Assembly (NCBI RefSeq): GCF_020149915.1
Contig: NZ_CP083760.1
Span: 868,001-932,000, forward strand
Source: Candidatus Sulfidibacterium hydrothermale
Lineage (GTDB): Bacteria; Bacteroidota; Bacteroidia; Bacteroidales; F082
Direction: 5' to 3'
DNA length: 64,000 nt
Shown here: positions 9,071 through 56,613 of the stretch, piece by piece
Numbering within the stretch: the stretch's first letter is position 1
Layout: every line of letters begins with the position of its first letter
Program-made: the position numbers and the translations under genes
Notes under the pieces: generated by a model
The model's input: only the letters and a program-made list of their open reading frames with translations
Databases searched by the model: none
What the model was told of the DNA's origin: nothing

Positions 9071-9108
9071 TCATTTTTATGGAATACAAACTAAAAAAGA
9101 ATAAAATC

Positions 9109-17390: not shown

Positions 17391-17407
17391 TTTGAAAATA
17401 TAAAGTT

Positions 17408-18940
17408 ATGAAAAGAATATATATTAAAACATTCGCAATTTTGTTCTCGATGTTGTTTGTGGCAACATCTTGTACAAACGATTGGGAACAGCTGAACACG
17501 GACCCGAACAACCCGGTCCAGGCGCCGTTTACCAATGTGCTTGCTCACTCGATCCGTTTAACCGGTGATGCTTTCTTCGATGATTGGCAGGGTATGAATA
17601 ACTTCTGTAGTTATGCCGGTGAGATTACTAAGATTCAGTACATTGACGAAGCCAAGTATAACTACCGTGACAATGTAGTATACACGGCTTGGAGTAACTA
17701 CTATGAAATTCAACTTGACCTTAAAAAGTTGATCGAAGCTGCTAAAGCTGATGGTAGAAACCTGAGTGAAGGTGTTGCTTTAACTTGGTCAGTTTACTTG
17801 TGGCAAATGGCTGTTGACCAGTGGGGTGATATTCCTTATAGCGAAGCTTTGATGGCTGAAGAAGGAAATAATACACCTAAGTATGATGCTGCATCAGACA
17901 TTTACAAAGATTTGCTTAACAAAATCGAAGAAGCTAATGATCTGTTAAGTAAGCCGAATATTACTGATGATTTGGGTGATGGCGATATTCTCTATAATGG
18001 TGATGTAGCCAAATGGCGTGAATTTGCCAATGCTATTCACTTGCGTATTGCTATGCGTCTTTCTTATGTAGAACCTGCTACCGCACAGGCTGAAGTAGAA
18101 AAGATTTTGACCAATCCGGATAAATATCCGTTGTGGGCAGGTCGTTCTGATGAAGCCAAATTGCAATGGCAGGGTACCAACCCTTACGACGAACCTTATT
18201 ACTATAACCGTTACGTAAGCAACCGTGATGACCATGGTATGGCCAAAACAATGATTGATACTCTGTTAAGCTTTAACGATCCTCGGATCTCTGCCTTTGC
18301 CAAACCGGCTACTTTGGATGGCGTTTACCGTGGTATGGTTGAAGGTGGAGCTCAGGTTGACCTGAAATCGATCTCCCGTATTGGTGCTATGTATCGTGAT
18401 GATCCGGCTGGATATACTTATTTCCTCCGTTATGCTGAGGTAATGTTTGACATTGCTGAAGCTGCTAACAATGGCTGGAATACCGGTTCTTATACTAAAG
18501 AAGGCGCTTATGAAGCTGGTATTAAAGCTTCGTTTGACGAAACTTACGGAAGCACTTATTCTCCGCTCTATGGTCAGGATGAAGCTGCTGCTTTGGCCGC
18601 TTATATGGCTAATCCGAAAGTGAAATTAACCGGTAATGCCGGTACACATTTCGACCTGAACCTGGACAACGACATGACAAAAATCTTTGTTCAGAAATGG
18701 ATTGCCATGTTTAAAGAAGGTCAGGAATTGTGGGCTTTCCAGAGAAGAACCAACTATCCGCCGATGTCGGCTGCTCCTGAATCAGTTTATCCTGGTCATA
18801 CAGTAGGACCTTTCCGTTATCCTTACCCAAGTACAGAATTCAACTTGAACAAAGAACATGTTGAAGCTGCTGCTCAGGGTATCGTTGACCACTTCTGGGG
18901 TAAACAGATTTTCTGGGATACTCGTCAGGGCGTTCAATAG
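17408..18940 (+). CDS. SusD/RagB-type surface lipoprotein 2
   Basis: The 510-residue lipoprotein, with Cys22 as the lipidation site (MLFVATSC, then TNDW), is followed by the SusD signature region NTDPNNPVQAP and the helical core with QWGDIPYSEAL (compare LWGDIPYSEAL in SusD-1) and the tail EFNLNKEHVEAAA. It is anchored in the outer membrane and caps the SusC-2 barrel. The 17-nt gap from susC-2 and the terminator at 18962 define a two-gene operon. Substrate unknown. Confidence 0.93.
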   Translation: MKRIYIKTFAILFSMLFVATSCTNDWEQLNTDPNNPVQAPFTNVLAHSIRLTGDAFFDDWQGMNNFCSYAGEITKIQYIDEAKYNYRDNVVYTAWSNYYEIQLDLKKLIEAAKADGRNLSEGVALTWSVYLWQMAVDQWGDIPYSEALMAEEGNNTPKYDAASDIYKDLLNKIEEANDLLSKPNITDDLGDGDILYNGDVAKWREFANAIHLRIAMRLSYVEPATAQAEVEKILTNPDKYPLWAGRSDEAKLQWQGTNPYDEPYYYNRYVSNRDDHGMAKTMIDTLLSFNDPRISAFAKPATLDGVYRGMVEGGAQVDLKSISRIGAMYRDDPAGYTYFLRYAEVMFDIAEAANNGWNTGSYTKEGAYEAGIKASFDETYGSTYSPLYGQDEAAALAAYMANPKVKLTGNAGTHFDLNLDNDMTKIFVQKWIAMFKEGQELWAFQRRTNYPPMSAAPESVYPGHTVGPFRYPYPSTEFNLNKEHVEAAAQGIVDHFWGKQIFWDTRQGVQ

Positions 18941-34615: not shown

Positions 34616-35443
34616 ATGAAAAACATAGAAGTTGCAGGTAAAACTTTTGGCGAAAAAGAACTTTTCCTGATCTGTGGTCCTTGTGTTATTGAGGAAGAAA
34701 AGATCATGATGGATGCCGCCGAACGAATAAAAAAAATAGCCGAGCGTCTTCATTTGCCGCTGATTTTCAAGTCGTCTTTTATGAAAGACAACCGAAGTTC
34801 GGTGGAGTATTATCAAGGGCCCGGGCTGGAAAAAGGTTTGCGCCTGCTCGAAAAAATAAAAACAACTTTTGATATGCCGGTACTCTCGGATGTGCATTAC
34901 CTTTCGCAGGTAAAACCGGCAGCCGAAGTGTTGGATGTTATTCAGATTCCGGCTTACCTTTGTATGCAAACTTCGTTGGTTACCGAAGCAGCAAAAACCG
35001 GAAAACCGGTGAATATTAAACACGGTCAGTTTATTGCACCTGAAAATATGATTAAACCGGTGCAGAAGGTTGAACATTACGGCAATAAAAATATTATACT
35101 TACCGAGCGTGGTTATACCTTTGGATACAATGACTTAATTGTGGATCCGCGCAGTTTTTATGAGCTGAACCGTATTGGTTATCCGGTTGTATTTGACATT
35201 ACTCATTGTATCCGGCGGTACGGTATTCCGAGTGCCGATCCGGCCGGTGGAACCCGCCAGTATCTTGGCCCTATTGCCCGGGCTGGTGTGGCTGCCGGTA
35301 TTGATGGTATTTTTGTGGAAGCACATCCTAAAGCTTGTGATGCCTTGTGCGATGCTGCCAGCCAATTGGATATTGACCAGCTTGAAGAATTCCTGAAACC
35401 TCTTATTGAAATTCATTACACCGAAAAAAAATATAGAAAATAA
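34616..35443 (+). CDS. kdsA: 3-deoxy-D-manno-octulosonate 8-phosphate synthase
   Basis: This 275-residue cytoplasmic enzyme condenses phosphoenolpyruvate with D-arabinose 5-phosphate into Kdo 8-phosphate for lipopolysaccharide. Motifs: LICGPCVIEE with Cys23 in the metal-ligand position, FKSSFMKDNRSS, and FDITHCIRRYG followed by DPAGGTRQ. Having Cys rather than Asn at the GPC site places it in the metal-dependent class. It heads a same-strand group with the transaldolase/CBS fusion (16 nt later) and a KdsC-like phosphatase. No good promoter consensus was found in the 215 nt upstream. Confidence 0.95.
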   Translation: MKNIEVAGKTFGEKELFLICGPCVIEEEKIMMDAAERIKKIAERLHLPLIFKSSFMKDNRSSVEYYQGPGLEKGLRLLEKIKTTFDMPVLSDVHYLSQVKPAAEVLDVIQIPAYLCMQTSLVTEAAKTGKPVNIKHGQFIAPENMIKPVQKVEHYGNKNIILTERGYTFGYNDLIVDPRSFYELNRIGYPVVFDITHCIRRYGIPSADPAGGTRQYLGPIARAGVAAGIDGIFVEAHPKACDALCDAASQLDIDQLEEFLKPLIEIHYTEKKYRK

Positions 35444-35459
35444 CTTAAAAGCGATAATT

Positions 35460-36491
35460 ATGATGGAGTTATATCTGGATTCGGCCGATGTTAACGAGAT
35501 TAAAGAAGTCTTTAAACTCGGTTTTCTCGACGGATTGACCACAACCCCCACTTTTATGCACCGGCACGGTATTACCGATATCGACGGTACTATTCTTGAA
35601 CTTTCAAAAATTGTTCCGGTTTTGCAGATTGAAGCACTGGGCGACACGGCTGAGGAAATTGTTGCCGAGGCACACCGCCTGCTCGATTTGGGGCTGGATA
35701 AGAAAAAAACCGTTTTTAAAATTCCGGCATCGTTGGAAGCGACCCGTGCCTGCAAAATGTTGCGCGACGAAGATATTATGGTAAACATCCATCTGGTTTA
35801 CAACCTGCAACAGGCTTACATGGCCATGTCGGCCGGAGCAACTTATGTATGTGTACTCGTGGGCAGGATGCAAGACCAGGGGTATGATGCTTTGAAACTG
35901 GTGGAAGATATTGTCAATGTGATTGATCATTACGGTTACGATAGCAAATTGATGTTTTCATCGGTACGTCATCCTGAGCATGTGAAAAATGCCCTTGAAC
36001 TGGGTTCGCATTGCTGTACCATTCCCTGGCGTGTGATGAAACAAATGAATACCAATAACTTTACCACTATCGGAACAGAGCAGTTTGTTTCGCACACCCG
36101 GCAAATTACCATGCGGGTAAAAGATGCCATTCCTGAAGGTGTAAATCCTGTTGTTACCTTGAACAATACGGTAAATGATGCCATTGTGGAAATGACAAAA
36201 TCAGGAACCGGCGCTGTGTCTATTGTGGACGAAAAAGGAAAAATTGCCGGTGTTTTTACCGATGGCGATCTGCGTCGTTATCTGAAAAACGAAGGCGAAT
36301 CCATTTTGTCCAGAACCATGGACAGTTTTAAACTTTTTGAACCCATTACGGTGGATGCCGATGACTTGCTGAAAAATGCCACGGCTATTTTTAAAGAAAA
36401 ACAAATCGATAACATCATTGTAACGGATCATCAAAAACCGGTCGGGATGCTTGATGTGCAGGATTTGGTGAAGCTTAAAGTGTTGGATTAA
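35460..36491 (+). CDS. Transaldolase/fructose-6-phosphate-aldolase-like domain fused to a CBS pair
   Basis: The 343-residue protein has two parts. Residues 1-210 form a TalC/FSA-type barrel: MELYLDSADV keeps the conserved Asp7, GLTTTPTFM corresponds to GVTTNPSII of E. coli FsaA, and Lys87 in VFKIPAS sits at the Schiff-base lysine. Residues about 223-343 are two CBS motifs, AGVFTDGDLRR and PVGMLDVQDLVKL, most like the regulatory tail of arabinose-5-phosphate isomerase KdsD. It lies between kdsA and a kdsC-like gene, where KdsD would be expected. A link to Kdo precursor supply is inferred. The start is ATG 35460 or the next ATG, 35463. Confidence 0.85.
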   Translation: MMELYLDSADVNEIKEVFKLGFLDGLTTTPTFMHRHGITDIDGTILELSKIVPVLQIEALGDTAEEIVAEAHRLLDLGLDKKKTVFKIPASLEATRACKMLRDEDIMVNIHLVYNLQQAYMAMSAGATYVCVLVGRMQDQGYDALKLVEDIVNVIDHYGYDSKLMFSSVRHPEHVKNALELGSHCCTIPWRVMKQMNTNNFTTIGTEQFVSHTRQITMRVKDAIPEGVNPVVTLNNTVNDAIVEMTKSGTGAVSIVDEKGKIAGVFTDGDLRRYLKNEGESILSRTMDSFKLFEPITVDADDLLKNATAIFKEKQIDNIIVTDHQKPVGMLDVQDLVKLKVLD

Positions 36492-36587
36492 GAAGGAGAG
36501 GATCGATCAGTAAATTTTTTGCAGACAGATAAATGGCTTACCGAAAAACATGAAAAATAAAATAAGGTTCCACATAAAACAGAATGC

Positions 36588-37271
36588 ATGAATGATATAG
36601 AAGCCTTATTTATCCGGACCGGTGGCCGGTTTGTCACCGCTGTTACTGATCTGCAAAAGAAAGTTGCCGCCTTAAAAGCGGTGATCTTCGATTGGGACGG
36701 TGTGTTTAATGCCGGCTACAAAACCGATGCCGGCAGCAGTCCTTTTTCTGAAGTTGATTCCATGGGAATCAATATGCTCAGGGTTGACTTTTGGTTACGT
36801 TATCACCGGATACTTCCTGTTTTTGTGATCACCGGAGCTGAAAACGAAATGGCTTTGCGTCTGGCACGTCGCGAACATTTAAACGGGATTTTTATGAAGT
36901 ATATTCATAAAACCCGGGCTCTTGAGATGATCTTACATGATTACGGTTTGAAAAAAGAGGAAGTGGCTTTTGTTTTTGATGATATTTTGGACATTGAAGT
37001 GGCCCGCCAAGTAGGTGTTTCTGTTCTTGTGAACCGTTCAGGAAGTCCGCTTACCACTGATTATATCGTTTCAAACAAAGTGTGTGATTATATCACTGGC
37101 AATGAAAGCGGAAATTTTGCTGTACGCGAAGCTTGTGAACTGTTCATCGGCCTTGGTGGCAATATGGTTCAAACCATCGAAACACGGATTCGTTTTAAAG
37201 GCGAATACGAACAGTACCTGACCAACCGGAATCGTACCGAAACCCATCTGTTCCGTTTCGGCGAGCAGTAA
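36588..37271 (+). CDS. kdsC: KdsC-like HAD phosphatase (Kdo 8-phosphate phosphatase)
   Basis: The 227-residue cytoplasmic protein has a HAD core at about 28-185: motif I IFDWDGVFNAG, motif II VITGAEN, a lysine in YIHKTRALE, and motif IV VFDDILDIEVARQVG. FSEVDSMGINMLR and AVREACELF also resemble KdsC, which dephosphorylates Kdo 8-phosphate to Kdo. Compared with E. coli KdsC it has about 25 extra N-terminal and 30 extra C-terminal residues. Its place 96 nt after the transaldolase/CBS gene in the kdsA group supports the assignment. A related sugar-acid phosphatase activity cannot be excluded. Confidence 0.8.
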   Translation: MNDIEALFIRTGGRFVTAVTDLQKKVAALKAVIFDWDGVFNAGYKTDAGSSPFSEVDSMGINMLRVDFWLRYHRILPVFVITGAENEMALRLARREHLNGIFMKYIHKTRALEMILHDYGLKKEEVAFVFDDILDIEVARQVGVSVLVNRSGSPLTTDYIVSNKVCDYITGNESGNFAVREACELFIGLGGNMVQTIETRIRFKGEYEQYLTNRNRTETHLFRFGEQ

Positions 37272-42870: not shown

Positions 42871-43329
42871 ATGCTCAATGTGATAGGAACATACGAAGCC
42901 AGAATTGATGCCAAAGGAAGATTCATGTTTCCAGTGGCTTACAAAACCCAAATGGGGGATGAGATCCGGAAGGGCTTTGTGGTGAAACGGAGCATTTTCA
43001 AAAAATGTCTTGAGCTTTTCCCGGCAGAGCAGTGGAAAATTGAATCGGCCATGGTGGCCAAGCTGAATATGTTCAAGAAAAAGAACGCAGAGTTTGTTAC
43101 CAAGTTTATGGCTGGTGTTAAGCCGGTCGAGCTGGATGGTACCGGGCGGTTGCTTCTCCCGAAGGATCTGCTGCAATATGGCGGAATTACTAAGCATATC
43201 GTGCTCACATCAGTCGTAAACCGAATTGAAATCTGGGATAAAGAGGCCTATGAAAAGGCGGTGGATTATAACCCGGACGATTTTGCCGAATTGGCTGAAG
43301 AAGTGATGGGTGAGCTCGAAACTGAATAA
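42871..43329 (+). CDS. mraZ: Transcriptional regulator MraZ
   Basis: The 152-residue protein has two AbrB-like SpoVT/MraZ half-domains: the first begins GTYEARIDAKGRFMFP, the second GVKPVELDGTGRLLLPK, each with the conserved D.KGR/D.TGR loop. MraZ forms a DNA-binding ring that controls its own division operon, fitting the phased repeats at 42799-42838. Length is normal. It is the first gene of the dcw cluster; rsmH starts 1 nt after its stop. Confidence 0.95.
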   Translation: MLNVIGTYEARIDAKGRFMFPVAYKTQMGDEIRKGFVVKRSIFKKCLELFPAEQWKIESAMVAKLNMFKKKNAEFVTKFMAGVKPVELDGTGRLLLPKDLLQYGGITKHIVLTSVVNRIEIWDKEAYEKAVDYNPDDFAELAEEVMGELETE

Positions 43330-43330
43330 A

Positions 43331-44236
43331 ATGTATCACAATCCGGTTTTATTACATAAAAGCATTGATGGTCTTCGTATTCATCCCGGCGGGATATACG
43401 TAGATGCTACTTTTGGCGGAGGGGGACATGCCCGCGCTATTCTGGAAAAACTGGGGCCTGATGGAACGTTGGTGGCTTTTGACCAGGATCCGGAAGCCGA
43501 AGCCAATAAGCCGGACGACGAGCGGTTGATTTTTGTGAATCAAAATTTCCGTTACCTGAAAAATTTTCTCCGTTTGTATGATAAAGTGCCGGTGGATGGT
43601 ATTCTGGCTGATCTCGGGGTGAGTTCCCATCAGTTTGATGAGGGCGCACGCGGGTTTTCCATTCGGTTTGACGGACCGTTGGATATGCGAATGGGAAAGC
43701 ATCAGGAGATAACGGCGGCGGATGTGCTTAATGAATATTCGCAGGAAGAAATCCAACAGATTATCCGGCTTTATGGCGAAATAAAAAATAGCCGTTGTAT
43801 GGCTGAGCAGATTGTGAGCCGGAGAAAACAAAAACCTTTTGAAACCACTTTTGAATTGATAGAAGCGGTAGAGAAGTGTATTCCGCCTACGCGGCGAAAT
43901 AAAATGCTCGCCATGTTGTTTCAGGCGCTTCGTATCGAAGTCAACCAGGAGCTGGAGGCGCTTAAAGCTTTTTTGGAGCAAACCGTGGATGTGTTAAAGC
44001 CGGGAGGCCGGTTGGTGGTGATTGCCTATCATTCGCTGGAAGACCGGTTGGTGAAAAACTTCATAAAAACCGGAAATTTTGAAGGAAAAGTACAAAAGGA
44101 TTTTTTCGGGAATGATTTAGTAGAGATGAAGCCGGTGGTGAATAAAGTAATTGTTCCCGACGAGGAAGAAATTATGCGGAACAGCCGGGCCCGTTCGGCC
44201 CGAATGCGTGTGGCAGAAAAATTACCAGAATCATGA
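43331..44236 (+). CDS. rsmH: 16S rRNA m4C1402 methyltransferase
   Basis: The 301-residue S-adenosylmethionine-dependent enzyme methylates N4 of C1402 in 16S rRNA. MYHNPVLLHKSIDGL is the family N-terminus, YVDATFGGGGHARAIL the cofactor-binding loop, and DGILADLGVSSHQFD and NEYSQEEI..I...YGE the following blocks. The ATG at 43331 is chosen over an earlier in-frame codon inside mraZ because it starts the conserved block. The stop overlaps the ftsL start (ATGA). Confidence 0.95.
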   Translation: MYHNPVLLHKSIDGLRIHPGGIYVDATFGGGGHARAILEKLGPDGTLVAFDQDPEAEANKPDDERLIFVNQNFRYLKNFLRLYDKVPVDGILADLGVSSHQFDEGARGFSIRFDGPLDMRMGKHQEITAADVLNEYSQEEIQQIIRLYGEIKNSRCMAEQIVSRRKQKPFETTFELIEAVEKCIPPTRRNKMLAMLFQALRIEVNQELEALKAFLEQTVDVLKPGGRLVVIAYHSLEDRLVKNFIKTGNFEGKVQKDFFGNDLVEMKPVVNKVIVPDEEEIMRNSRARSARMRVAEKLPES

Positions 44237-44625
44237 AAGGAAATCAGTTTAAAAAAGAAAAGCAGGAAAAAGAAGGAGGGCATGCCGAAGGAGCGGGAAC
44301 CTTTGTTCGTGCTACGCAGGATGTGTTGGGAGGAGGAATTCTGGAAAATAAAAAAGCAAAACGGGTATTCCCGTTTTTGCTTTTTTTGGCACTGTTGGCA
44401 TTCGTTTATATCACCAACGATTATTTGTTGGAAAATAAAGTACGGAAAATTACCCGTATGGAACGGCAGATCAGAGAACTGCGGTATGAATACATCTCGG
44501 TGAAATCGGATTTGATGACGTTGAGCAAGCAGTCGCAGCTGGAAAAAAGGCTGGAAAAGATGGGGATAAAAGAAAACAAAGAACCGGTAAAAACCATTGT
44601 CATTTATTCTAAAAACGCAAAATAG
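44233..44625 (+). CDS. ftsL: FtsL-like cell division protein
   Basis: The 130-residue bitopic protein has a basic cytoplasmic N-terminus (about 1-50), one transmembrane helix (about 51-70, VFPFLLFLALLAFVYI) and a coiled-coil-like periplasmic part (NKVRKITRMERQIRELRYEY) ending in LEKMGIKE. Sequence is poorly conserved, but topology and position between rsmH and the transpeptidase gene identify the FtsL role: bridging FtsQ and the septal synthase FtsW/FtsI. Starts within the rsmH stop (ATGA). Confidence 0.85.
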   Translation: MKGNQFKKEKQEKEGGHAEGAGTFVRATQDVLGGGILENKKAKRVFPFLLFLALLAFVYITNDYLLENKVRKITRMERQIRELRYEYISVKSDLMTLSKQSQLEKRLEKMGIKENKEPVKTIVIYSKNAK

Positions 44626-44627
44626 CT

Positions 44628-46742
44628 TTGTCAGGAAACAAAAAAGTCATATTGCCCCGTGTGTATCTCGTCTATTTCGGGACGTTGATTTTTGGTGTAT
44701 TGATTATCGGAAAAATAATCGAAATTCAGTACAAGGAAGGTCCTCAGCTGCTGGCAAAAGCCAAAAAACAAGAGATCCGGGTTTTTAACCTGAAAGCAGA
44801 CCGTGGAAATATTTTGTCGGCAAAAGATAATCTGCTGGCTACCTCCGTCCCCGTTTTTGAAATACGCATGGATGTGGCTAACGGATATATTTCCAATGCA
44901 TTGTTTCGCGAAAAAGTCGATTCGCTGGCTTTGTGTCTTTCCCGTCTTTTTAAAGACCGTTCAACCGGTTATTACATCCGGATCTTGAAACGTGCCCGGG
45001 CCAAAGGAAACCGTTATTTGTTATTGCATCGTCATGTGAGTTATTCGCAACTGAAACAGTTACGTACTTTTCCCATTCTGCGTCGTGGAAGAAATCGTGG
45101 CGGACTCATCGCCATTCAAAAAACCCGGCGCGAATTGCCCTTTGGACAGCTGGCTGCCCGCACCATTGGTTACGAAAACAAAAAAGAACATTTGTATGTA
45201 GGACTGGAAGGAGCCTGGTCTGATGTGCTCACCGGAGTGGATGGAAAGCAAATCCGCCGGCGAATCAACGGAGGGGCCTGGCTTCCTGTGCATGATGAAA
45301 ATGAAATCCTTCCCCAAAACGGAAAAGATATCATCACTACCCTCGATATGAATTTGCAGGATGTCGCCGAAAATGCTTTGCTGAAACAGATGATCAAGCA
45401 TGATGCGGTAATGGGATGTGCCATCCTGATGCAGGTAAAAACCGGTGATATCAAAGCCATTGCCAATTTGATGTATGATAAAAAAACCGGTTTTTATCAG
45501 GAAAGTTACAATATGGCCATTGGCGAAAAATATGAGCCGGGTTCCACTTTTAAACTGGCTTCCGTGATTTCGGCATTGGAAGATCACAAAATTAAACTGA
45601 CCGATACGGTTTCTGTAAAAAAAGGTTATGTGATGTATTATGGGCGGAGGCTTCGCGATGTGCATGTCATTGGTAACGGACTGATTACCGTGCGGCAGGC
45701 TTTTGAGCATTCGTCGAATGTGGGAATCTCCAAAGTGATTGAACGGGCCTACAAAAAAGAACCTTCACGTTTTATACAGCATTTGTATGCGATGGATCTA
45801 AACAAACCGCTCGGTTTGAAAATTGCCGGAGAAGCCAAGCCGTACATTAAAAACCCGTCGGATAAAAAACATTGGTATCTTACTTCATTACCCTGGATGT
45901 CAGTGGGATATGGTTTGGAAATTACTCCGCTGCAATTGTTGACCTTTTACAATGCGGTAGCCAATAACGGCGTAGAAGTAAAACCCCGGTTTGTAACGGC
46001 AATTTCTGATGGCGGAAGGATCATCAAAAAGTTCCCGGTTCAAATCAGAAATCCGAAAATAGCCTCTTTGCCCACCATAAAGAAAGCGCAAAGCTTACTG
46101 GAAGGAGTGGTGTTGCGCGGAACCGCACAAAATCTGAAAAACGATCATTTTCAAATGGCGGGAAAGACCGGTACAGCTAAAATATCAGAAAACGGAAAAT
46201 ATATTCCGGGAGCTTATAATGCATCTTTTGTGGGATATTTTCCGGCTAACGATCCGCAATATTCTTGTATCGTGGTGATCAACAAGCCGAAACACGGCTA
46301 TTACGGGAGCCAGGTGGCCGCACCGGTTTTTAAGGAAATTGCCGATAAAGTGTATGCAACCTCTGTGGCGCTGCATCAAAAACCGGCAAAAAAAGATTCG
46401 CTGAAAACCACCATTCCGGTGGCTGTCAATGCGGCCTGGTATCCTGATCTGAAAGAAATTTATCATCAACTCGGTATTTCCACATTCCGCTATTCTTATG
46501 CTGATGGTTGGACTGTCACCAGCGAAAAGAAAGGAAAAGTAGTATTTCATCCTAAGATGTTTTCGGCAAATCTTGTTCCCAATGTAAAGGGAATGACTGC
46601 TGAAGATGCTGTGTTTTTGTTGGAAAACAAAGGAATGAAAGTAATGGTCCATGGCAGAGGAGTCGTGTATGATCAGTCGGTGAAACCGGGTAGTCCTGTG
46701 GTAAAAGGGAAAAAAATCATTATCCGGTTGACGAATTTATAA
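44628..46742 (+). CDS. ftsI: Septal penicillin-binding protein (FtsI type) with PASTA domain
   Basis: The 704-residue bitopic transpeptidase cross-links septal peptidoglycan in the periplasm. One N-terminal helix (about 8-28); dimerisation domain (about 50-240); transpeptidase domain with Ser306 in EPGSTFK, the SSN triad at 362-364 and KTG at 513-515; and a C-terminal PASTA domain (about 645-704, VPNVKGMTAEDAVFLLE). The start is the TTG at 44628: an in-frame stop lies at 44610-44612 and no ATG or GTG falls between it and the membrane helix. It begins 2 nt after the ftsL stop. Confidence 0.93.
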   Translation: MSGNKKVILPRVYLVYFGTLIFGVLIIGKIIEIQYKEGPQLLAKAKKQEIRVFNLKADRGNILSAKDNLLATSVPVFEIRMDVANGYISNALFREKVDSLALCLSRLFKDRSTGYYIRILKRARAKGNRYLLLHRHVSYSQLKQLRTFPILRRGRNRGGLIAIQKTRRELPFGQLAARTIGYENKKEHLYVGLEGAWSDVLTGVDGKQIRRRINGGAWLPVHDENEILPQNGKDIITTLDMNLQDVAENALLKQMIKHDAVMGCAILMQVKTGDIKAIANLMYDKKTGFYQESYNMAIGEKYEPGSTFKLASVISALEDHKIKLTDTVSVKKGYVMYYGRRLRDVHVIGNGLITVRQAFEHSSNVGISKVIERAYKKEPSRFIQHLYAMDLNKPLGLKIAGEAKPYIKNPSDKKHWYLTSLPWMSVGYGLEITPLQLLTFYNAVANNGVEVKPRFVTAISDGGRIIKKFPVQIRNPKIASLPTIKKAQSLLEGVVLRGTAQNLKNDHFQMAGKTGTAKISENGKYIPGAYNASFVGYFPANDPQYSCIVVINKPKHGYYGSQVAAPVFKEIADKVYATSVALHQKPAKKDSLKTTIPVAVNAAWYPDLKEIYHQLGISTFRYSYADGWTVTSEKKGKVVFHPKMFSANLVPNVKGMTAEDAVFLLENKGMKVMVHGRGVVYDQSVKPGSPVVKGKKIIIRLTNL

Positions 46743-46754
46743 CAAAAGACATTC

Positions 46755-48215
46755 ATGTTGAAAACATTACAAGACATATTATCTGGAGTTTCCGTTGAAA
46801 AAACAATCGGAGAAATCAATGTGCCTGTGAAGCATATCCGGTTTGATTCCCGTGATGTTTCTCAACAGGATCTCTTTGTTGCTGTTCCCGGTACCCAGGT
46901 TGATGGCCATCATTATATTGATAAAGCCATTGAAAAAGGAGCGGCGGCCATTGTGTGCGAACATCTCCCGGAGCATTTAAAATCAGGAGTAACTTATGTT
47001 AAAGTGCCGCATGCCGCCCGGGCTCTCGGAAAAATGGCTTCGGCTTATTTTGATCATCCATCGGAAAAGCTGAAAGTGGTAGGGGTAACCGGTACCAACG
47101 GCAAAACCACCATCGTCACTTTGCTGCATCAATTATTCCTGAAACTGGGGTACAAAGCCGGTATGCTTTCTACCATTGTCAATAAAATAAACCATCGGGA
47201 AATTAAAAGTACACACACTACACCGGATGCGGTTCACATTCAGCAGATGCTGAATGATATGGTGAAAGCCGGATGTGATTATGTTTTTATGGAAGTGAGT
47301 TCGCATGCCATTGTGCAAGAGCGTATTGCCGGTTTGCAGTTTGCCGGTGGCGTTTTTACCAACATCACTCATGATCATCTGGATTATCATAAAACATTCA
47401 AAGAGTACATTTTTGCCAAAAAACGATTTTTTGATCTTTTGCCCGAAAAGGCTTTCGCCTTGGTGAATGCTGATGACCGCCATGCTAAGGTGATGATACA
47501 AAATACAAAAGCCCGGAAGTACACTTATGGTATTCGCTCAATGGCAGATTTTCATGCCCGGGTGCTGGAGAACCGTTTTTCGGGACTGGAAATGATCATT
47601 AACGAAAAACCCTTTTTCTCGCTGCTGACAGGAATCTTTAATGCTTCCAATTTATTGGCGGTGTATGCGGTAGCTGTTTTGCTTGAGCAGGATCGTGACG
47701 AAGTTTTGCAGGTACTCAGTAGTTTGAAAGGAGCCGAAGGCCGCTTTGAAGTTTTGACTTCTCCTGATCAGGTAATCTGTATTGTGGATTATGCGCATAC
47801 ACCGGATGCCCTGAAAAATGTCTTGACAACCATTCAGGATATTCGTTCCGGTAATGAGCAGCTGATTACCGTGGTAGGAGCCGGAGGAAACCGCGACAAG
47901 ACCAAAAGACCTGAGATGGCTGCTATTGCTGCTTCGTTGAGCAACCGGGTGATTTTGACTTCAGACAATCCGCGCAACGAAGATCCGGAAATCATTTTGC
48001 AGGACATGAAAGCGGGTATCGATCCGGTGCATAAGAAAAATACACTGGTTATTTCTGACCGGAAAGAAGCCATAAAAACAGCGTATGCTTTGGCTGCTCC
48101 GGGAGATATTATTTTGATTGCGGGAAAAGGACATGAGAAATACCAGGAAATAAAAGGAGTACGCTATCCTTTTGACGATAAACAGGTTTTGTTGGAAATT
48201 TTTGAAACACGATAA
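46755..48215 (+). CDS. murE: UDP-MurNAc-Ala-Glu:meso-diaminopimelate ligase
   Basis: The 486-residue cytoplasmic ATP-dependent ligase adds the third stem-peptide residue. The ATP loop is [10 protein letters not shown] (about 110), followed by STHTTPD and EVSSHAI. The DNPR motif in SDNPRNEDP is the one that recognises meso-diaminopimelate, so the peptidoglycan is predicted to contain meso-DAP and not lysine. Length normal; 12 nt after ftsI and 2 nt before mraY. Confidence 0.95.
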
Positions 48216-48217
48216 AT

Positions 48218-49459
48218 ATGCTGTACTATCTATTTAAATATCTGCATGATGCCTATTCTTTTCCGGGAGCGGGAGTGTTTCAGTATCTCTCATTCAGGGC
48301 GGCTATGGCCATCATTACTTCGCTTCTTATCAGCTTGGTTTTTGGTGAACACTGGATTCGATATTTAAATAAAAAACAGGTGGGCGAAACGGTTCGTGAC
48401 CTGGGTCTGGAAGGACAGCTTGAAAAACAGGGAACGCCTACCATGGGCGGACTGATTATTCTTGCCTCGATCATTATACCGGCTTTGCTTTTTGCCCGGC
48501 TCGATAATGTGTATATCCTGCTCATGCTTTTTACTACCGTTTGGCTGGGCGCTTTGGGTTTTCTGGATGATTATATCAAAGTCTTTAAGAAAAATAAAGA
48601 AGGTTTACCCGGCAGATATAAGATTATCGGACAGGTAATTCTGGGACTGGTTGTCGGTTTGGTGATGTATTTTAATAAAAATGTGGTGACCCGCGAAAAA
48701 CAGGTTCATCAGGTAACACAGGTTTATTCTTTGATGGATAAATCCGGTCCGTCAGCCCGCTTTTCCATTACTGATAAACATTCTACCAAAACTACGATTC
48801 CTTTTTTGAAAAACAATGAATTCGATTATGCGGTATTGTTAAAATGGCTGGGGCCCGGTTATGAAAAATGGGCGTTTTTGGTTTTTATCCCGGTGGTCAT
48901 TCTGATTATTACCGGGGTTTCCAACGGGGCTAACCTGACCGATGGGATGGACGGACTGGCGGCGGGAACATCCGCCATTATGGGCGCTACATTGGGAATC
49001 TTGGCCTGGGTTTCCGGTAATATCATCTTCGCTGATTATCTGAATATCATGTACTTGCCTAATGTGGGTGAGCTGGCGGTTTATATCAGTGCTTTTGTGG
49101 GAGCCACGGTGGGCTTTTTATGGTACAATACTTATCCGGCGCAGGTGTTTATGGGCGATACCGGTAGTTTGGCTATCGGCGGAATCATTGCCGTATTTGC
49201 CATTATTATTCGTAAAGAATTGCTGATTCCCATTTTCGGCGGCATTTTTCTCGCGGAGAGTATCTCGGTGATTCTGCAGGTCAGCTATTTCAAATATACC
49301 CGGAAAAAATACGGAGAAGGAAAACGCATTTTCAAAATGGCGCCTTTGCATCATCACTATCAAAAGCTGGGTTTTCCGGAGCCCAAAATTGTGTTGCGCT
49401 TTTTTATTGTGGGAATTGCACTTGCCGTAGCCACCATTTTAACATTAAAAGTGCGCTAA
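48218..49459 (+). CDS. mraY: Phospho-MurNAc-pentapeptide translocase
   Basis: The 413-residue polytopic inner-membrane enzyme makes lipid I from UDP-MurNAc-pentapeptide and undecaprenyl phosphate. The acidic pair is in [10 protein letters not shown], the central motif in [15 protein letters not shown], and the histidine loop in [15 protein letters not shown]. It is about 50 residues longer than E. coli MraY because of a polar insert at about 152-208 (between NVVTREKQ and GPGYEKW), common in Bacteroidota as far as I know. Confidence 0.95.
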
Positions 49460-49469
49460 ATGAAAGATA

Positions 49470-50816
49470 ATGAAAACAACAGACGACATAGTGGTTTTGG
49501 GAGCCGGAGAAAGCGGTACCGGCGCTGCTGTGTTGGCGAAAAAAAAGGGACTAAAGGTTTTTGTCTCGGATAAAGGAAAAATAAACGAAAAATATCGTCG
49601 CGTTCTTACACAGTTTGATATTGATTTTGAAGAAAACGGGCATACGTTTCCGCGCATTTTCTCTGCCCAAAAGGTGGTGAAAAGTCCGGGAATTCCTGAT
49701 ACGGTTCCCTTTATTCAGCAGTTGCACGAAAAGGGAATACCGGTAATCTCGGAAATTGAATTTGCGGCAGCTTATACCCGGGCTAAAAAGATAGCCATTA
49801 CAGGAAGCAACGGAAAAACCACCACCACCTTGCTGACTTACCACATTTTGAAAAAAGCAGGCATGAACGTGGGACTGGCCGGCAATGTGGGGAAAAGTTT
49901 TGCCTGGCAGGTGGCTTTTCATGATTTCGACTGGTATGTGTTGGAGATCAGTAGTTTTCAGCTGGATGGAATGGTCCGGTTTAAGGCCGATATCGCCATT
50001 TTGCTGAACATTACACCCGACCATCTTGACCGGTACAATAACGATTTTCAGCAATATGTGGACAGTAAGTTCCGGATACTTCAAAATCAAACAGCGGATG
50101 ATTATTTCATTTACTGGGATGATGATCCGGTGATCAAAAAGGAATTAAAAAAAAGAAAAATCACGGCTGTCCGGGTACCTTTTGGTGAACATTGTGCCGA
50201 AAGTAATCCGGGAGCCGGAATAATTAATAAGAAAATAAGGTTTAACAACGGTAAAAACAGTTTCGATATGACACTTGAACAATTAGCTTTACAAGGTAAA
50301 CACAACACCTACAATTCAATGGCCTCAGGTGTGGCAGCTCATTTGATGGAAATCAGAAAAGAAACCATTAAACAGAGCCTTTCTGATTTTCAGAATATTG
50401 CTCACCGGCTGGAATATGTGGCCAGTGTTCACGGTATTACTTTTATTAACGATTCAAAAGCTACCAATGTCAATTCAACATGGTATGCACTGGAATACAT
50501 GGAGAAACCGGTGATCTGGATCGTCGGCGGTGTGGACAAAGGGAATGACTATGATTTGCTCAAACCGCTGGTGGCCGAAAAAGTAAAAGGCATTGTTTGT
50601 CTGGGACTTGATAACCGGCGCATACATCAGGCTTTTGAAGGATTGGTGGATACCATTATCGATACCGAATCGGCCCGCGAAGCCGTGGCCACAGCCTATT
50701 ATCTGGCAAAAAAAGGCGATGTGGTACTGCTTTCTCCTGCCTGTGCCAGCTTCGATTTGTTTGAAAATTATGAAGATCGTGGAAATCAGTTTAAAGCAGC
50801 AGTAAACGAATTATAA
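49470..50816 (+). CDS. murD: UDP-MurNAc-L-alanine:D-glutamate ligase
   Basis: This 448-residue cytoplasmic Mur ligase adds D-Glu as the second stem residue. Visible motifs: N-terminal nucleotide fold VVLGAGESGTGAAVLAKKKG, ATP loop ITGSNGKTTTT, central NITPDHLDRY, and C-terminal FINDSKATNVNSTWYAL with GGVDKGNDY. Length as expected. Placed between mraY and ftsW, 10 and 14 nt from its neighbours, on the same transcript. Confidence 0.95.
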   Translation: MKTTDDIVVLGAGESGTGAAVLAKKKGLKVFVSDKGKINEKYRRVLTQFDIDFEENGHTFPRIFSAQKVVKSPGIPDTVPFIQQLHEKGIPVISEIEFAAAYTRAKKIAITGSNGKTTTTLLTYHILKKAGMNVGLAGNVGKSFAWQVAFHDFDWYVLEISSFQLDGMVRFKADIAILLNITPDHLDRYNNDFQQYVDSKFRILQNQTADDYFIYWDDDPVIKKELKKRKITAVRVPFGEHCAESNPGAGIINKKIRFNNGKNSFDMTLEQLALQGKHNTYNSMASGVAAHLMEIRKETIKQSLSDFQNIAHRLEYVASVHGITFINDSKATNVNSTWYALEYMEKPVIWIVGGVDKGNDYDLLKPLVAEKVKGIVCLGLDNRRIHQAFEGLVDTIIDTESAREAVATAYYLAKKGDVVLLSPACASFDLFENYEDRGNQFKAAVNEL

Positions 50817-50830
50817 AAACGGGAGCTAAA

Positions 50831-52000
50831 ATGTCAGTTTTCCATTCTAAAATAAATATTAAAGGCGACCAGGTAATCTGGGCGGTCGTATTTATTCTTA
50901 CGATTCTCTCTTTTCTCGCCGTGTATAGCTCTACCGGAACACTGGCTTACAAATACCATGGGGGGAATACGGCGTATTATATGCTGAAACATGGTATTAT
51001 CTTGCTTACCGGTTTGCTGTTGATGTATCTTGCTCATTTGCTGAAATATACATACTATTCCCGTATCTTCCAGATTGCTTTTTATATTGCTGTTCCTTTG
51101 CTGTTGTTGACGTTGCTTTTCGGGTTGAACCTGAACGAAGCCCGCCGTGCACTTCCTTTACCGTTTCATTTGAGTTTTGAAACATCCGACCTTGCTAAAC
51201 TAACGCTTACCGTTTACCTTGCCCGGATTCTGACGAAAAAAGAAGAAGAAATTAAAGATTTCGGGAAAGTATTGTTGTATTTGATGCTGCCTGTTGTTAT
51301 TGTTTGTGGCCTGATTTTTCCGGCTAACTTTTCTACTGCTGCCCTTATCTTTGTCTCCAGTCTGGTTTTGATTTATATCGGAAGAGTAAAATTCTCTTAT
51401 ATCCTGGCTATTTTGGGATTAACGGTTTTACTGCTTGGCTTTGCCATTGGCATTTTGTTTATGATGCCGGCCGGAAAACAGGCCCGGCTGGCAACCTGGA
51501 AAACCCGTATTGAACAGTACGTAAAAGGAGGCGATGCCAAAGACAATTATCAGGTGGAACAGGCCAAGATTGCTATTGCTTCCGGTGGTATTTTTGGAAA
51601 AATGCCCGGGAAAAGCACCCAACGTAACTTTTTGCCTCATCCGTATTCCGATTTTATTTATGCCATTATTGTGGAAGAGTATGGCCTTTTGGGGGGAACA
51701 GTGGTTGTTTTACTTTACTTGATCCTGTTGTACCGGGCGGTACGCATTGTAACCAAAGTCCCCAATAATTTTGGGGCTTATCTTGCTATGGGACTAAGTT
51801 TTAGCCTGGTTTTTCAGGCGATGATCAATATGGGGGTAGCCGTGCATCTTTTACCGGTGACCGGACAGCCGTTGCCGTTGGTAAGTATGGGAGGAACTTC
51901 CATTTGGTTTACCAGCCTTTCCATAGGCATTTTGTTAAGTGTAAGTAAAGAGATAGAAACAAATAATACAGAAACAGAACCAGAACCGGTGGCTTCATGA
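50831..52000 (+). CDS. ftsW: Septal peptidoglycan glycosyltransferase FtsW
   Basis: The 389-residue SEDS-family inner-membrane protein has about ten helices and polymerises septal glycan strands together with the FtsI-type protein. Signature stretches are FAVYSSTGTLAYKY near the N-terminus and the late block LPVTGQPLPLVSMGGTS. A polar tail (NNTETEPEPVAS) follows the last helix. Its stop overlaps the murG start (ATGA, 51997-52000), indicating coupled translation. Confidence 0.95.
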   Translation: MSVFHSKINIKGDQVIWAVVFILTILSFLAVYSSTGTLAYKYHGGNTAYYMLKHGIILLTGLLLMYLAHLLKYTYYSRIFQIAFYIAVPLLLLTLLFGLNLNEARRALPLPFHLSFETSDLAKLTLTVYLARILTKKEEEIKDFGKVLLYLMLPVVIVCGLIFPANFSTAALIFVSSLVLIYIGRVKFSYILAILGLTVLLLGFAIGILFMMPAGKQARLATWKTRIEQYVKGGDAKDNYQVEQAKIAIASGGIFGKMPGKSTQRNFLPHPYSDFIYAIIVEEYGLLGGTVVVLLYLILLYRAVRIVTKVPNNFGAYLAMGLSFSLVFQAMINMGVAVHLLPVTGQPLPLVSMGGTSIWFTSLSIGILLSVSKEIETNNTETEPEPVAS

Positions 52001-53118
52001 AAAAGGAAAAAACATATAAAATTTTGCTGAGCGGTGGAGGCACCGGAGGTCATATCTTTCCGGCAATTGCTATTGCCAATGGATTGAAGGAAAAATTGAA
52101 ACCGGTGGATATTTTGTTTGTGGGAGCCAATGGCCGCATGGAAATGGAAAAAGTACCCCAGGCCGGTTTTCCCATTGAAGGGCTGCCCATTAGCGGAATT
52201 CAACGGCGGTTGACCCTGAAAAATTTATTGTTCCCGTTTAAGTTGATAGTGAGTTTGCTGAAAGCTAAAAAGATCGTTAAGCAATTTCAACCCGATGTGG
52301 TGGTGGGAACGGGGGGATACGCCAGTGGTCCTCTGTTGAAGATGGCTGCAAAAAAAGGATTCCCCACACTTATTTTGGAACAAAATTCTTATCCGGGAAT
52401 TACCAACCGTTGGCTCGGAAAGGTGGTAGATGTGATTTGCACGGCTTACGAAGGAATGGAAAAATATTTCCCGGCCGAAAAAATTGTGGTTACGGGTAGC
52501 CCGGTACGGAAAAATATCCGGGAGATAAAATACACACCCGGTGAAGCCCGGAAGTTTTTTGGCCTGGAAGAAAACCGGAAAACCTTGTTGATTATTGGTG
52601 GCAGTCAGGGCGCTTTGCGGATTAATGAAGCGGTGGCTTTGCATATCGAAAAATTGCTGGCAAACGGAATTCAGGTAATCTGGCAAACCGGAAAATTTTC
52701 GCAGGAGATGGCTGAACGTTCATTGCTCAATGCAAAGTTTAGAAACCGGGTAGTGGTAAAAGATTTTATTTACGAGATGGATAAAGCGTATGCCGCAGCT
52801 GATGTGGTGGTGTCGCGGGCAGGGGCCATTGCCATTGCCGAAATTGTGGAAACCGGTAAACCGGCTGTTTTTATTCCGTTGCCATCAGCAGCCGAAGATC
52901 ATCAAACCCGAAATGCCCGGGCTTTGGTACAAAAAGATGCTGCGTTGTTGCTCGAAGAAAAAAAAGCTCCCCGGTTATTTTTTGATGTGGTTTTCGGTTT
53001 ACTGAAGGATGAAGAAAAACAACAGCTTTTTCGGAAAAACCTGATGCTGTTTAAGCATGGAGATGCTACAGAAAAAATTGTTCATGAAGTCATACAGTTA
53101 ATACAAAAGCAGGCGTGA
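51997..53118 (+). CDS. murG: UDP-GlcNAc:lipid I N-acetylglucosaminyltransferase
   Basis: The 373-residue peripheral membrane enzyme converts lipid I to lipid II on the cytoplasmic face. LLSGGGTGGHIFPAIAIA is the N-terminal glycine loop, followed by VVGTGGYASGP, and the C-terminal domain has GGSQGALRIN and the UDP-GlcNAc site VSRAGAIAIAEI. It overlaps ftsW by ATGA and murC by GTGA. Confidence 0.95.
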   Translation: MKKEKTYKILLSGGGTGGHIFPAIAIANGLKEKLKPVDILFVGANGRMEMEKVPQAGFPIEGLPISGIQRRLTLKNLLFPFKLIVSLLKAKKIVKQFQPDVVVGTGGYASGPLLKMAAKKGFPTLILEQNSYPGITNRWLGKVVDVICTAYEGMEKYFPAEKIVVTGSPVRKNIREIKYTPGEARKFFGLEENRKTLLIIGGSQGALRINEAVALHIEKLLANGIQVIWQTGKFSQEMAERSLLNAKFRNRVVVKDFIYEMDKAYAAADVVVSRAGAIAIAEIVETGKPAVFIPLPSAAEDHQTRNARALVQKDAALLLEEKKAPRLFFDVVFGLLKDEEKQQLFRKNLMLFKHGDATEKIVHEVIQLIQKQA

Positions 53119-54461
53119 AAACAAAAAAAGACATACTCTTCTTTTTGGGTATCGGCGGAATCGGGATGAGTGCCCTGGCCCGTTGGTTTCTTGCCGGCGG
53201 CTATACCATTTACGGGTACGATGCTTTTCGTACACCGTTGACCCGTCAGCTTGAAAAAGAAGGAATGCATGTTTTTTATACCGAAGATGTGGCCCGGGTT
53301 CCGGAAACGGTAACCCGGGTGATCTATACGCCGGCGATTTCTAAAGATCATCCATTGTTTCGTTATTTTGTTTCGCAGAATGTGAAAATGGAAAAACGGG
53401 CAGCTGTCCTGGGTGATATCAGCCGCGATTTGTTTACCATAGCCATTGCCGGAACACATGGGAAAACCAGTGTGACTGCCATGGTTGCCCATATATTGAA
53501 AGAAGCCGGATTTCCCGTCACTGCTTTTATCGGAGGAATAGCCAAGAATTTTCAGGGGAACTTTGTCTTTTCTCCTGATTCAAAATATCTTGTGGCTGAA
53601 GCAGATGAATATGACCGCTCTTACCTTTTTCTGCATCCCGATGTAGCGGTCATTACGTCCATGGATGCGGATCATCTGGATATTTATTCCGGTATGGATG
53701 ATTTGCGGAAAACTTTTATGCAGTTTGCCCGGCGGCTTCCTGAAAACGGCAAGCTGGTGCTTAAAGAGCGGTTGCCTGAGCCGGAAAATATTTCCGTGAT
53801 AACGTATGGTTTTTCTGAAGAAGCGGTTCTGAAAGCCGAAAATATCCGGATAGAAAAAGAGAGATATTGTTTTGATGTAAAGCAAAATAAAACGTTGCTT
53901 TTTTCTCCAGCGCTGCGTCTTCCCGGTTTGCATTATGTGGAAAACAGCCTGGCCGCAACCGGTGTGGCTTTGCAATTGGGTATAGCTCCTGCGGTTATTC
54001 GGGAGGCATTAAAAAGCTTTACCGGTGTACAGCGCCGGTTTGATATCCGGATTCAAACACCGGAACGGATCTTTATTGATGATTATGCCCATCATCCCGA
54101 AGAGTTGCGGGTAACTTTGCAAACCGTTAAAACGCTTTATCCGGACAAAAAACTTACCGTGGTTTTTCAGCCGCATTTATACAGCCGTACCCGCGATTTT
54201 GTTGATGATTTTGCCCGGGTTCTCGAAACAGCGGATCGGATCATACTGCTGGATATTTATCCTGCCCGTGAGAAACCGATTCCGGGAATCACTTCGCAAT
54301 TGATTGCCGATAAAATAAAACAGACCGAAACCATTTTGATGAACAAGGAAGCATTGTTGCCGTTTTTAGAAAAGGAAAAACCGGAACTGTTGCTTACACT
54401 GGGAGCCGGAGACATTGGACTGCTGGTTCCTGATATAGAAAAAATATTACGTGTCTCATGA
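53115..54461 (+). CDS. murC: UDP-N-acetylmuramate:L-alanine ligase
   Basis: The 448-residue cytoplasmic Mur ligase adds the first stem residue, L-Ala. Motifs: FLGIGGIGMSALARW at the N-terminus, ATP loop IAGTHGKTSVTAM, VAEADEYDRSYL, and DDYAHHPEELR. The start is the GTG at 53115, overlapping the murG stop as GTGA; the protein begins directly before the conserved GIGGIGMS block, so no later start is plausible. Its stop overlaps the ftsQ start (ATGA). Confidence 0.95.
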   Translation: MKTKKDILFFLGIGGIGMSALARWFLAGGYTIYGYDAFRTPLTRQLEKEGMHVFYTEDVARVPETVTRVIYTPAISKDHPLFRYFVSQNVKMEKRAAVLGDISRDLFTIAIAGTHGKTSVTAMVAHILKEAGFPVTAFIGGIAKNFQGNFVFSPDSKYLVAEADEYDRSYLFLHPDVAVITSMDADHLDIYSGMDDLRKTFMQFARRLPENGKLVLKERLPEPENISVITYGFSEEAVLKAENIRIEKERYCFDVKQNKTLLFSPALRLPGLHYVENSLAATGVALQLGIAPAVIREALKSFTGVQRRFDIRIQTPERIFIDDYAHHPEELRVTLQTVKTLYPDKKLTVVFQPHLYSRTRDFVDDFARVLETADRIILLDIYPAREKPIPGITSQLIADKIKQTETILMNKEALLPFLEKEKPELLLTLGAGDIGLLVPDIEKILRVS

Positions 54462-55228
54462 AAAAAACATTGTCCATATTGTTTGTTTCGTTGTTTGGTG
54501 TAGCGCTGCTTTTGCTGGCGGCATTTGCCTTTCGTGAGTATCGTAATCAACGTGTCAAGGACATCGTTATCCACATCAACCGCAAAGGGGAAAAGGGATT
54601 TCTTTCAAAAAAGGAAATAAAAGCCCTGATCATCCGGAATGATTCAGTGATCGGAAAGCCGATAAAAAGGGTCAATACGGCGAAACTGGAAAAGCAAATT
54701 GATAAAAATCCGTATGTGAAACAGGCCGATGTTTATATGAGTATTGCTGGCCGACTTATGGTGAATGTCAGTGAGAAAACGCCTTTGTTGCAGGTTCTTA
54801 ACCTGAAAAATCAAAGAGGATATGTTGATCATAACGGCACTTTTTTCCCGTTGAGTAATGCATTTGCTCCCCGTGTTTTGCCTGCCAACGGATATATTAA
54901 AACCGGGTGGCATAACGGCGAAAATATTTTTGACAAAAAATTCAGGAATACTTCGCTACCTGTTTTATTTTTGCTGGCCAAAAAAATTGAAGCGGATCGC
55001 TTGTTGCGGGTTTATATCAGCCAGCTGTTTGTCAATAGCCGGGGAGAAGTTGACCTGGTTCCTGAACTGGGAAGGTATGTCATCCATTTTGGTGACAGTA
55101 CCCGGATGAATGTGAAACTGGAAAATTTAGAAGCCTTCATAAAGCAGGTTTTCGCTCATGGAGGCTGGTCAAAATACAGAAGTATTAATCTGGAATTTAC
55201 CAACCAGGTGGTTTGTACAAAAAAATAG
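54458..55228 (+). CDS. ftsQ: Cell division protein FtsQ
   Basis: The 256-residue bitopic protein has one N-terminal transmembrane helix (about 5-26, LSILFVSLFGVALLLLAAFAF), a POTRA-like domain (about 34-110, IVIHINRKGEKGFLSKKEIKALI) and a beta domain to the end. It links FtsL and the septal synthase in the periplasm. Sequence conservation is low, but topology and the slot between murC and ftsA make the call firm. Begins in the murC stop (ATGA). Confidence 0.9.
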   Translation: MKKTLSILFVSLFGVALLLLAAFAFREYRNQRVKDIVIHINRKGEKGFLSKKEIKALIIRNDSVIGKPIKRVNTAKLEKQIDKNPYVKQADVYMSIAGRLMVNVSEKTPLLQVLNLKNQRGYVDHNGTFFPLSNAFAPRVLPANGYIKTGWHNGENIFDKKFRNTSLPVLFLLAKKIEADRLLRVYISQLFVNSRGEVDLVPELGRYVIHFGDSTRMNVKLENLEAFIKQVFAHGGWSKYRSINLEFTNQVVCTKK

Positions 55229-55232
55229 GCTT

Positions 55233-56534: not shown

Positions 56535-56613
56535 ATTAACTTTTTCATGTTAAAAACTATCTTCAGGTCAATAGGAAAAGCAAAAACAAACAATTATTTT
56601 TAATACGTAAATT

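Follow-up and report, generated by a model that had tools for sequence, protein, structure and literature searches.

The stretch of DNA analyzed here (the window) comprises 64,000 nucleotides of the genome of Candidatus Sulfidibacterium hydrothermale (contig NZ_CP083760.1, positions 868,001 to 932,000). It carries, in a row on the plus strand, kdsA, a gene in which a barrel resembling TalC and fructose-6-phosphate aldolase (FSA) is fused to a pair of CBS domains (hereafter the fusion), and a gene for a phosphatase of the haloacid dehalogenase (HAD) type (Table 1). The upstream gene reaches the curated family score for KdsA (TIGR01362), the synthase of 3-deoxy-D-manno-octulosonate (Kdo) 8-phosphate. 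The fusion follows after 16 nt if it starts at the ATG at 35460, or after 19 nt if it starts at the ATG at 35463, and another 96 nt separate it from the HAD gene. Residues are numbered throughout from the second ATG, which gives a protein of 342 amino acids with Asp6 and Lys86; counted from the first ATG, these become Asp7 and Lys87.

The enzymes KdsD, KpsF and GutQ are arabinose 5-phosphate (A5P) isomerases that act as the first committed enzymes of Kdo biosynthesis, and Gram-negative bacteria typically encode at least one of them, according to an excerpt of PMC10448790, which also reports that an E. coli K-12 double mutant without kdsD and gutQ is nonviable. Here we describe the fusion as a candidate replacement for KdsD.

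Table 1. Genes, domains and active-site codons of the kdsA locus, in window coordinates.
Feature	Position	Strand	Basis or remark
kdsA	34616..35443	+	TIGR01362, 317.4 bits against a cut-off of 314; Kdo-8-phosphate synthase
Transaldolase/FSA-CBS fusion gene	35460 or 35463..36491	+	Proposed A5P-forming replacement of KdsD
TalC/FSA-like barrel, residues 1-210	35463..36092	+	Pfam TAL_FSA; Foldseek match 1vpx
Thr28 codon	35544..35546	+	Asn in four unfused TalC/FSA proteins; Thr in 52/52 fusions
Lys86 codon	35718..35720	+	Present in 52/52 fusions; aligns with Lys of unfused relatives
His110 codon	35790..35792	+	Thr in four unfused TalC/FSA proteins; His in 52/52 fusions
Cys130 codon	35850..35852	+	Cys in 47/52 and Thr in 5/52 fusions; unfused: Ser (three TalC), Ala (one FSA-like)
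KdsD-type CBS pair, residues 212-342, with TDGDLRR	36096..36488	+	TIGR00393; 4o9k; shared residues
HAD phosphatase gene, distantly KdsC-like	36588..37271	+	NF007019, 51.1 bits against a cut-off of 208

Domain composition of the fusion

A Pfam search of the fusion protein returned TAL_FSA (119.5 bits, residues 3-201) and CBS (57.8 bits), and no SIS domain at E ≤ 0.01. Against the NCBIfam model fsa_talC_mipB (TIGR00875), the protein scored 164.1 bits, under the family cut-off of 245.95. An AlphaFold2 model (mean predicted local distance difference test score, 92.0; predicted template modelling score, 0.72) had the Thermotoga transaldolase 1vpx as its top Foldseek match (E = 1.1e-20; target template modelling score, 0.90). 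The best NCBIfam match of the tail was kpsF (TIGR00393, the KdsD kind), covering profile positions 150-267 of 268 with 67.0 bits; this score lies under the model's cut-off of 203.7 bits, and the part of the family that the fusion does possess is the C-terminal CBS pair. Among solved chains, the tail came closest to the CBS pair of 4o9k (E = 1.5e-15), an arabinose 5-phosphate isomerase presumably solved with CMP-Kdo.

The CBS pairs of 18 fusions were then aligned with 29 KdsD tails, obtained from 32 loci tried. T266, D267, G268, D269, R271 and R272 are kept at 90% or more in both groups, and the common positions include P229, G250, G263, P294, G328 and D334. Mean identity is 27% between fusions and KdsD, and 54% within each group. 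These features suggest that the two kinds of CBS pair likely share a ligand. Chance resemblance was rejected on the basis of the profile matches and of the recurrence of the fusion, with 58-88% identity, in different families and in one further phylum.

A sequence-only reading of the window had described a TalC/FSA-like barrel fused to a KdsD-type CBS tail after kdsA. The three genes lie where it placed them and the profile matches agree; the TIGR00393 and 4o9k matches, together with the conserved TDGDLRR residues, bear out the type of the tail. Its 16-nt spacing, Asp7 and Lys87 are correct when counted from the ATG at 35460. It had also called the downstream gene kdsC-like: the position and the HAD type stand, but the likeness is weak, the scores falling below both KdsC cut-offs (48.4 of 106.95 bits for TIGR01670; 51.1 of 208 bits for NF007019).

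Occurrence of the fusion relative to KdsD and other Kdo genes

The source genome is a single contig and 99.18% complete. No SIS-CBS KdsD was found in it, either with the KdsD/KpsF profile, for which all 12 candidates were scored, or in a PF01380 search, so that a hidden KdsD was rejected for this genome; the best match to the kpsF/KdsD model was the CBS tail of the fusion itself. The PF01380 search returned four SIS stretches. Two lie within one frame of 635 amino acids, whose length and pair of SIS domains suggest GlmS, and the remaining SIS proteins read as GmhA-like, encoded beside a gmhB-like gene, and MurQ-like. One KdsA over cut-off, one KdsB and one WaaA-type transferase are encoded, with kdsB away from the cassette. 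Judged by these profile searches, the KdsA, KdsB and WaaA steps are present in the source genome and the usual A5P step is absent.

In the profile comparison made for the source genome, KdsD exceeded the cut-off in 21 of 25 genomes, and in 10 of 11 genomes of the same genus, the exception being G009 (86% complete). Among the eleven same-genus genomes searched, only G006 carries the fusion. This genome, one of the ten, holds both sets: a kdsD, a second KdsA on another contig, and a cassette of aminotransferase, iron-containing alcohol dehydrogenase (Fe-ADH), kdsA, fusion and HAD genes.

We then surveyed 395 Bacteroidota genomes, a sample that includes the source genome but not G006, with thresholds of E ≤ 1e-42 for the fusion, E ≤ 1e-40 for KdsD and E ≤ 1e-60 for KdsA. 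Up to six candidates per genome were scored in the KdsD and KdsA scans, and the fusion genomes were rerun with all candidates scored. The fusion was found in 6 genomes, KdsD in 283 (277 over cut-off) and KdsA in 288. KdsD accompanied KdsA in 277 of these 288 and was missing from 11; the fusion was present in 6 of the 11 and in none of the 277 (Fisher's p = 6e-10 with kinship ignored; p = 1.6e-8 without the source genome). By their taxonomy codes, the six fusion genomes span five families. Within the class of the source genome, the fusion occurs in 5 of 6 genomes without KdsD and in 0 of 92 with it, among the matches listed. In the rerun, KdsD exceeded the cut-off in one of seven fusion genomes, namely G006. 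Besides the source genome, the sample contains five fusion genomes; each is at least 99% complete, and none showed a KdsD when every candidate was scored. These results indicate that the fusion and KdsD are nearly mutually exclusive.

A scan of contigs yielded 490 relatives of the fusion. The best 80 loci were kept, and 50 named genomes of the 80 were tested. The titles of the 80 point mostly to Bacteroidota and in some cases to Desulfobacterales; a few labels are doubtful. One contig (L109, L110), binned as Azovibrio restrictus, has a fusion near-identical to a Bacteroidota one and is likely a binning error. All 50 named genomes have KdsA. For 42, the SIS part of the KdsD model drew no match at E ≤ 1e-14; KdsD exceeded the cut-off in 7; and in G456 a match over model positions 1-222 fell just under it (193.1 of 203.7 bits). 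Among the bearers without KdsD are three isolates (Saccharicrinis aurantiacus, Thermoflexibacter ruber and Thermonema rossianum) and LGM1, a complete Chitinophagaceae record. No KdsD appears in the complete chromosome that holds locus L106. Two KdsA were present in 4 of the 7 KdsD-bearing genomes, compared with 0 of the other 43 (p = 1.5e-4; 3.0e-4 if G456 is counted as KdsD-bearing). From the KdsA and KdsD counts, the two sets can coexist, yet a single KdsA is nearly always accompanied by KdsD or by the fusion.

In a tree of 50 fusion rows (49 loci and the window), the distribution of KdsD-bearing rows requires five changes, four of them forced by the starred branches of the tree. This is slight clustering, as 19 of 500 shuffles gave a count as low. 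Three rows from Thermodesulfobacteriota group together in a single clade (100/99), beside a Bacteroidota row with moderate support (87/84).

Of the best 80 loci, 64 contain a relative of kdsA, 71 one of the HAD gene and 36 one of kdsB; relatives of the aminotransferase and the Fe-ADH of G006 each occur in 32. Unguided clustering of open reading frames of at least 110 amino acids within 5 kb of the 80 loci gave several recurrent families: those reaching 16 or more loci were the fusion (80), HAD (69), kdsA (63), kdsB (36), aminotransferase (32), Fe-ADH (31) and a Kdo transferase (16), and the next family reached 8. In the two nearest loci (L042 and L043), the fusion and the HAD gene flank kdsB, and L042 also has the aminotransferase and Fe-ADH. 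An incidental fusion unrelated to Kdo genes was rejected, given kdsA in 64 of 80 loci and recurrent neighbours of the Kdo or 8-amino-Kdo (Kdo8N) type plus a phosphatase. The HAD family is the most constant neighbour, although the HAD protein of the window scores far below the KdsC cut-offs, and is perhaps an unrecognised Kdo-8-phosphate phosphatase family; from its sequence and position, the HAD protein of the window is probably the Kdo-8-phosphate phosphatase of the cassette.

The cassette KdsA shares 63-72% identity with nine KdsA of fusion genomes, against 47% with the canonical KdsA of G006. In the window, L130 and L137, it represents a subclass with KDNRS in place of KANRS and an altered loop near IRRYGIPSAD; the KDNRS type is common to the window and the other fusion genomes compared. 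A pair of DegT aminotransferase and Fe-ADH genes, possibly making Kdo8N, occurs in kds loci with the fusion (L042, 5568-7853, and 31 others). No model named these proteins as KdnA or KdnB; the Pfam families DegT and Fe-ADH fit. In Shewanella, kdnA and kdnB constitute the Kdo8N pathway. The 32 fusion loci resemble that arrangement in placing the pair beside kdsA, the fusion and often HAD and kdsB, whereas no kdnA or kdnB gene lies between kdsA and the HAD gene of the window; no search of the remaining genome was made. KdnB is named in PMC5125639.

The fusion sits among Kdo genes and occurs mostly where KdsD is missing, and is therefore a probable alternative source of the precursor that KdsD makes. 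Reasoning from gene content and sequence, we put at about three in four the probability that the Kdo pathway draws its A5P from the fusion, which would replace KdsD with an unrelated catalytic part. The sequence-only reading had suggested A5P supply in place of, or beside, KdsD. Its proposal is supported by the whole-genome search, in which no SIS-CBS kdsD was found and the SIS proteins read as GlmS, GmhA and MurQ, by the tie to kds genes and by bearers that are mostly without KdsD. The survey of Bacteroidota and of fusion neighbours that it called for found the fusion mostly in KdsD-less genomes and not spread away from kds genes, kdsA sharing the locus in all but 16 of the 80; 'beside' is apt for the coexistence counted below.

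Active site and candidate reactions

We aligned 52 fusions (that of the window and those of 51 of the 80 loci) and compared them with four unfused relatives, three TalC and one FSA-like. Asp6, Thr28, Glu57, Lys86, Asn108, His110, Leu132, Arg135, Ser167 and Arg169 are invariant in the fusions; Asp6, Lys86, Arg135 and Ser167 are also common to all four unfused relatives. Position 132, Leu in every fusion, is Phe in the three TalC and Tyr in the FSA-like protein. The fusion thus shares with FsaA and TalC (TIGR00875) the barrel fold and the lysine position that we take to be that of the catalytic Schiff base. It differs from them in scoring below the family cut-off, in its CBS tail and kds linkage, and at four positions: Asn28 to Thr, Thr110 to His, Ser/Ala130 to Cys and Phe/Tyr132 to Leu. 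Asn28 of TTNP, Thr110 and the aromatic residue at 132 (Tyr in FSA, Phe in TalC), presumably family-defining, are missing from all 52 fusions. As aligned, the surroundings of the donor carbon have been remodelled, and the site is neither that of an FSA nor that of a transaldolase. We take Asn28 and Ser130 to contact the C1 hydroxyl of the dihydroxyacetone unit, and Phe132 to be a contact residue as well; a substrate lacking that hydroxyl, such as glycolaldehyde or an aldose, would fit the loss of Asn28 and Ser130.

FSA can form A5P from glycolaldehyde and glyceraldehyde 3-phosphate, and FsaA and FsaB prefer glycolaldehyde as donor, according to an excerpt of PMC6298115. Because the site is neither that of FSA nor that of transaldolase, and no glycolaldehyde-source neighbour recurs, this aldol route is one of two options. 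Since the fusions lack the FSA tyrosine, have His110 as a new residue and show no recurrent neighbour of that kind, a direct A5P isomerase acting on ribulose 5-phosphate, or a C2 epimerase acting on ribose 5-phosphate, through Glu57, Lys86 and His110 is a live, if on the whole unlikely, alternative. These three residues are present in all 52 fusions, and the changes of Thr to His at 110 and of Phe/Tyr to Leu at 132 leave neither known site. Such an enzyme would need no free glycolaldehyde and would replace KdsD like for like, with the same type of regulatory tail. Set against it, the fusion keeps Asp6, Glu57, Lys86, Asn108, Arg135, Ser167 and Arg169 of TalC, which fits aldol chemistry, and we know of no isomerase or epimerase activity in a transaldolase-type fold. 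Should the A5P-supplying role be right, aldol addition of glycolaldehyde to glyceraldehyde 3-phosphate would stand somewhat short of an even chance; a glycolaldehyde-free conversion of ribulose- or ribose-5-phosphate would be only slightly less probable; and other chemistry appears improbable.

We infer both the reaction and the regulation of the fusion. The remodelled transaldolase-type barrel, with Lys86 kept, would make A5P; KdsA would couple A5P to phosphoenolpyruvate; the HAD protein would probably take off the phosphate; and KdsB and WaaA, encoded elsewhere in the genome, would complete the route. The CBS pair, which is of the KdsD type, probably tunes the enzyme in response to a product of the pathway, for instance CMP-Kdo. 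The full proposal seems to us probable, if slightly less so than the role itself: a new class of enzyme, whether a glycolaldehyde-using aldolase, an isomerase or an epimerase, would make A5P with a remodelled transaldolase barrel gated by a KdsD-type CBS pair, and would have taken the place of KdsD in several lineages of Bacteroidota and in some Desulfobacterales.

Weighing the proposed role

Several observations count against an A5P-supplying replacement of KdsD. Of the 57 fusion genomes tested, 8 also have KdsD, namely G006 and 7 of the named ones, or 9 if G456 is counted; the 57 are the 50 named genomes and 7 others, and the two sets may overlap. Some of the 16 loci without kdsA lack it through a contig end. 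In Labilibacter marinus, a second copy of the fusion (L050, 1855-12726) lies in a sugar-metabolism operon, not by kdsA. Five KdsA-bearing genomes of the sample have neither KdsD nor the fusion (G062, G239, G311, G342 and G397). In the two of them that were inspected, KdsA is 46-47% identical to that of the window, G239's lies near a contig end, and no KdsD or fusion relative was found within 9,000 of the 16,834 bases of one contig and 19,001 of the 237,858 of the other. Kinship was left uncorrected in the exclusion statistic, and most of the named genomes are metagenome assemblies for which completeness figures are absent. Finally, no recurrent neighbour family within 5 kb of the 80 loci looks like a glycolaldehyde source, and free glycolaldehyde is not usually an abundant metabolite.

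The neighbours of the Labilibacter copy are an FSA-like aldolase, a transketolase, a phosphohexomutase-like protein, a phosphoglycolate-phosphatase-like HAD protein and a short-chain dehydrogenase/reductase, and may offer a clue to substrate chemistry.

The fusion might instead be an ordinary transaldolase or FSA that the Kdo pathway sets through the CBS pair, diverting pentose phosphates, while A5P comes from an unrecognised isomerase or a side activity of GmhA. The clear TalC/FSA family match and fold would fit, and a GmhA-like SIS protein is present; however, the exclusion with KdsD is left unexplained, Asn28, Ser130 and Phe132 of TalC are replaced, and a separate transaldolase-like stretch exists at G000:C1:536595-536987, which together make this account improbable. 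Still less probable is a cassette that makes a Kdo stereoisomer from another pentose 5-phosphate, supplied by the fusion to the variant KdsA. The distinct KdsA subclass, with KDNRS for the canonical KANRS and other loops, and the retention of two KdsA in some genomes, G006 included, would agree with it. Against this, a single KdsA exceeds the cut-off in the source genome, the 43 named genomes without KdsD over cut-off have one KdsA each (E ≤ 1e-60), and KdsB and WaaA exceed their cut-offs in all ten genomes tested, fusion and non-fusion alike. That KdsD is present but was missed through incomplete assemblies or divergence, the linkage being incidental, is very improbable: the metagenome assemblies, the limit of six candidates in the 395-genome scans and the near miss of G456 leave room for it, but not the complete scoring of the source genome and of the five other fusion genomes, the isolates and L106 without KdsD, or the presence of KdsD in 277 of 282 KdsA-bearing genomes lacking the fusion.

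Other features of the window lie outside this argument. Two gene pairs resemble SusC/SusD transport systems (5882-10542 and 14094-18940), and a division and cell-wall cluster runs from an mraZ-like to an ftsZ-like gene (42871-58320), both as read from the translations. A PADLOC scan of the fusion led to nothing. A motif scan, not used as evidence, returned 10 promoter-like sites (7.4 expected) and 7 terminator-like sites (3.3 expected).

The domains of the fusion are known, but their combination and the role proposed for it are new. With KdsD, KpsF and GutQ it shares the type of its C-terminal CBS pair, TDGDLRR included, the Kdo context and the proposed product, A5P. It differs in lacking an SIS domain; its catalytic part is a barrel of transaldolase type that carries a lysine where the Schiff base would form. 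Among the open-access matches listed, titles and abstract openings describe neither a transaldolase-CBS fusion nor its link to Kdo, the subscription literature lying mostly outside that set. FsaA now serves as an A5P aldolase in carbon-conserving pathway design, as stated in part of PMC9947464.

If our proposal is correct, the fusion would be either an A5P aldolase found in nature or an isomerase with a new fold, both of which would be useful in such design, and one regulatory module would operate on two unrelated enzymes for the same metabolite. It would constitute a second natural entry into Kdo biosynthesis, a non-homologous replacement that would explain the source of A5P in 6 of the 11 sampled Bacteroidota with KdsA and no KdsD, and in most of the named fusion genomes.

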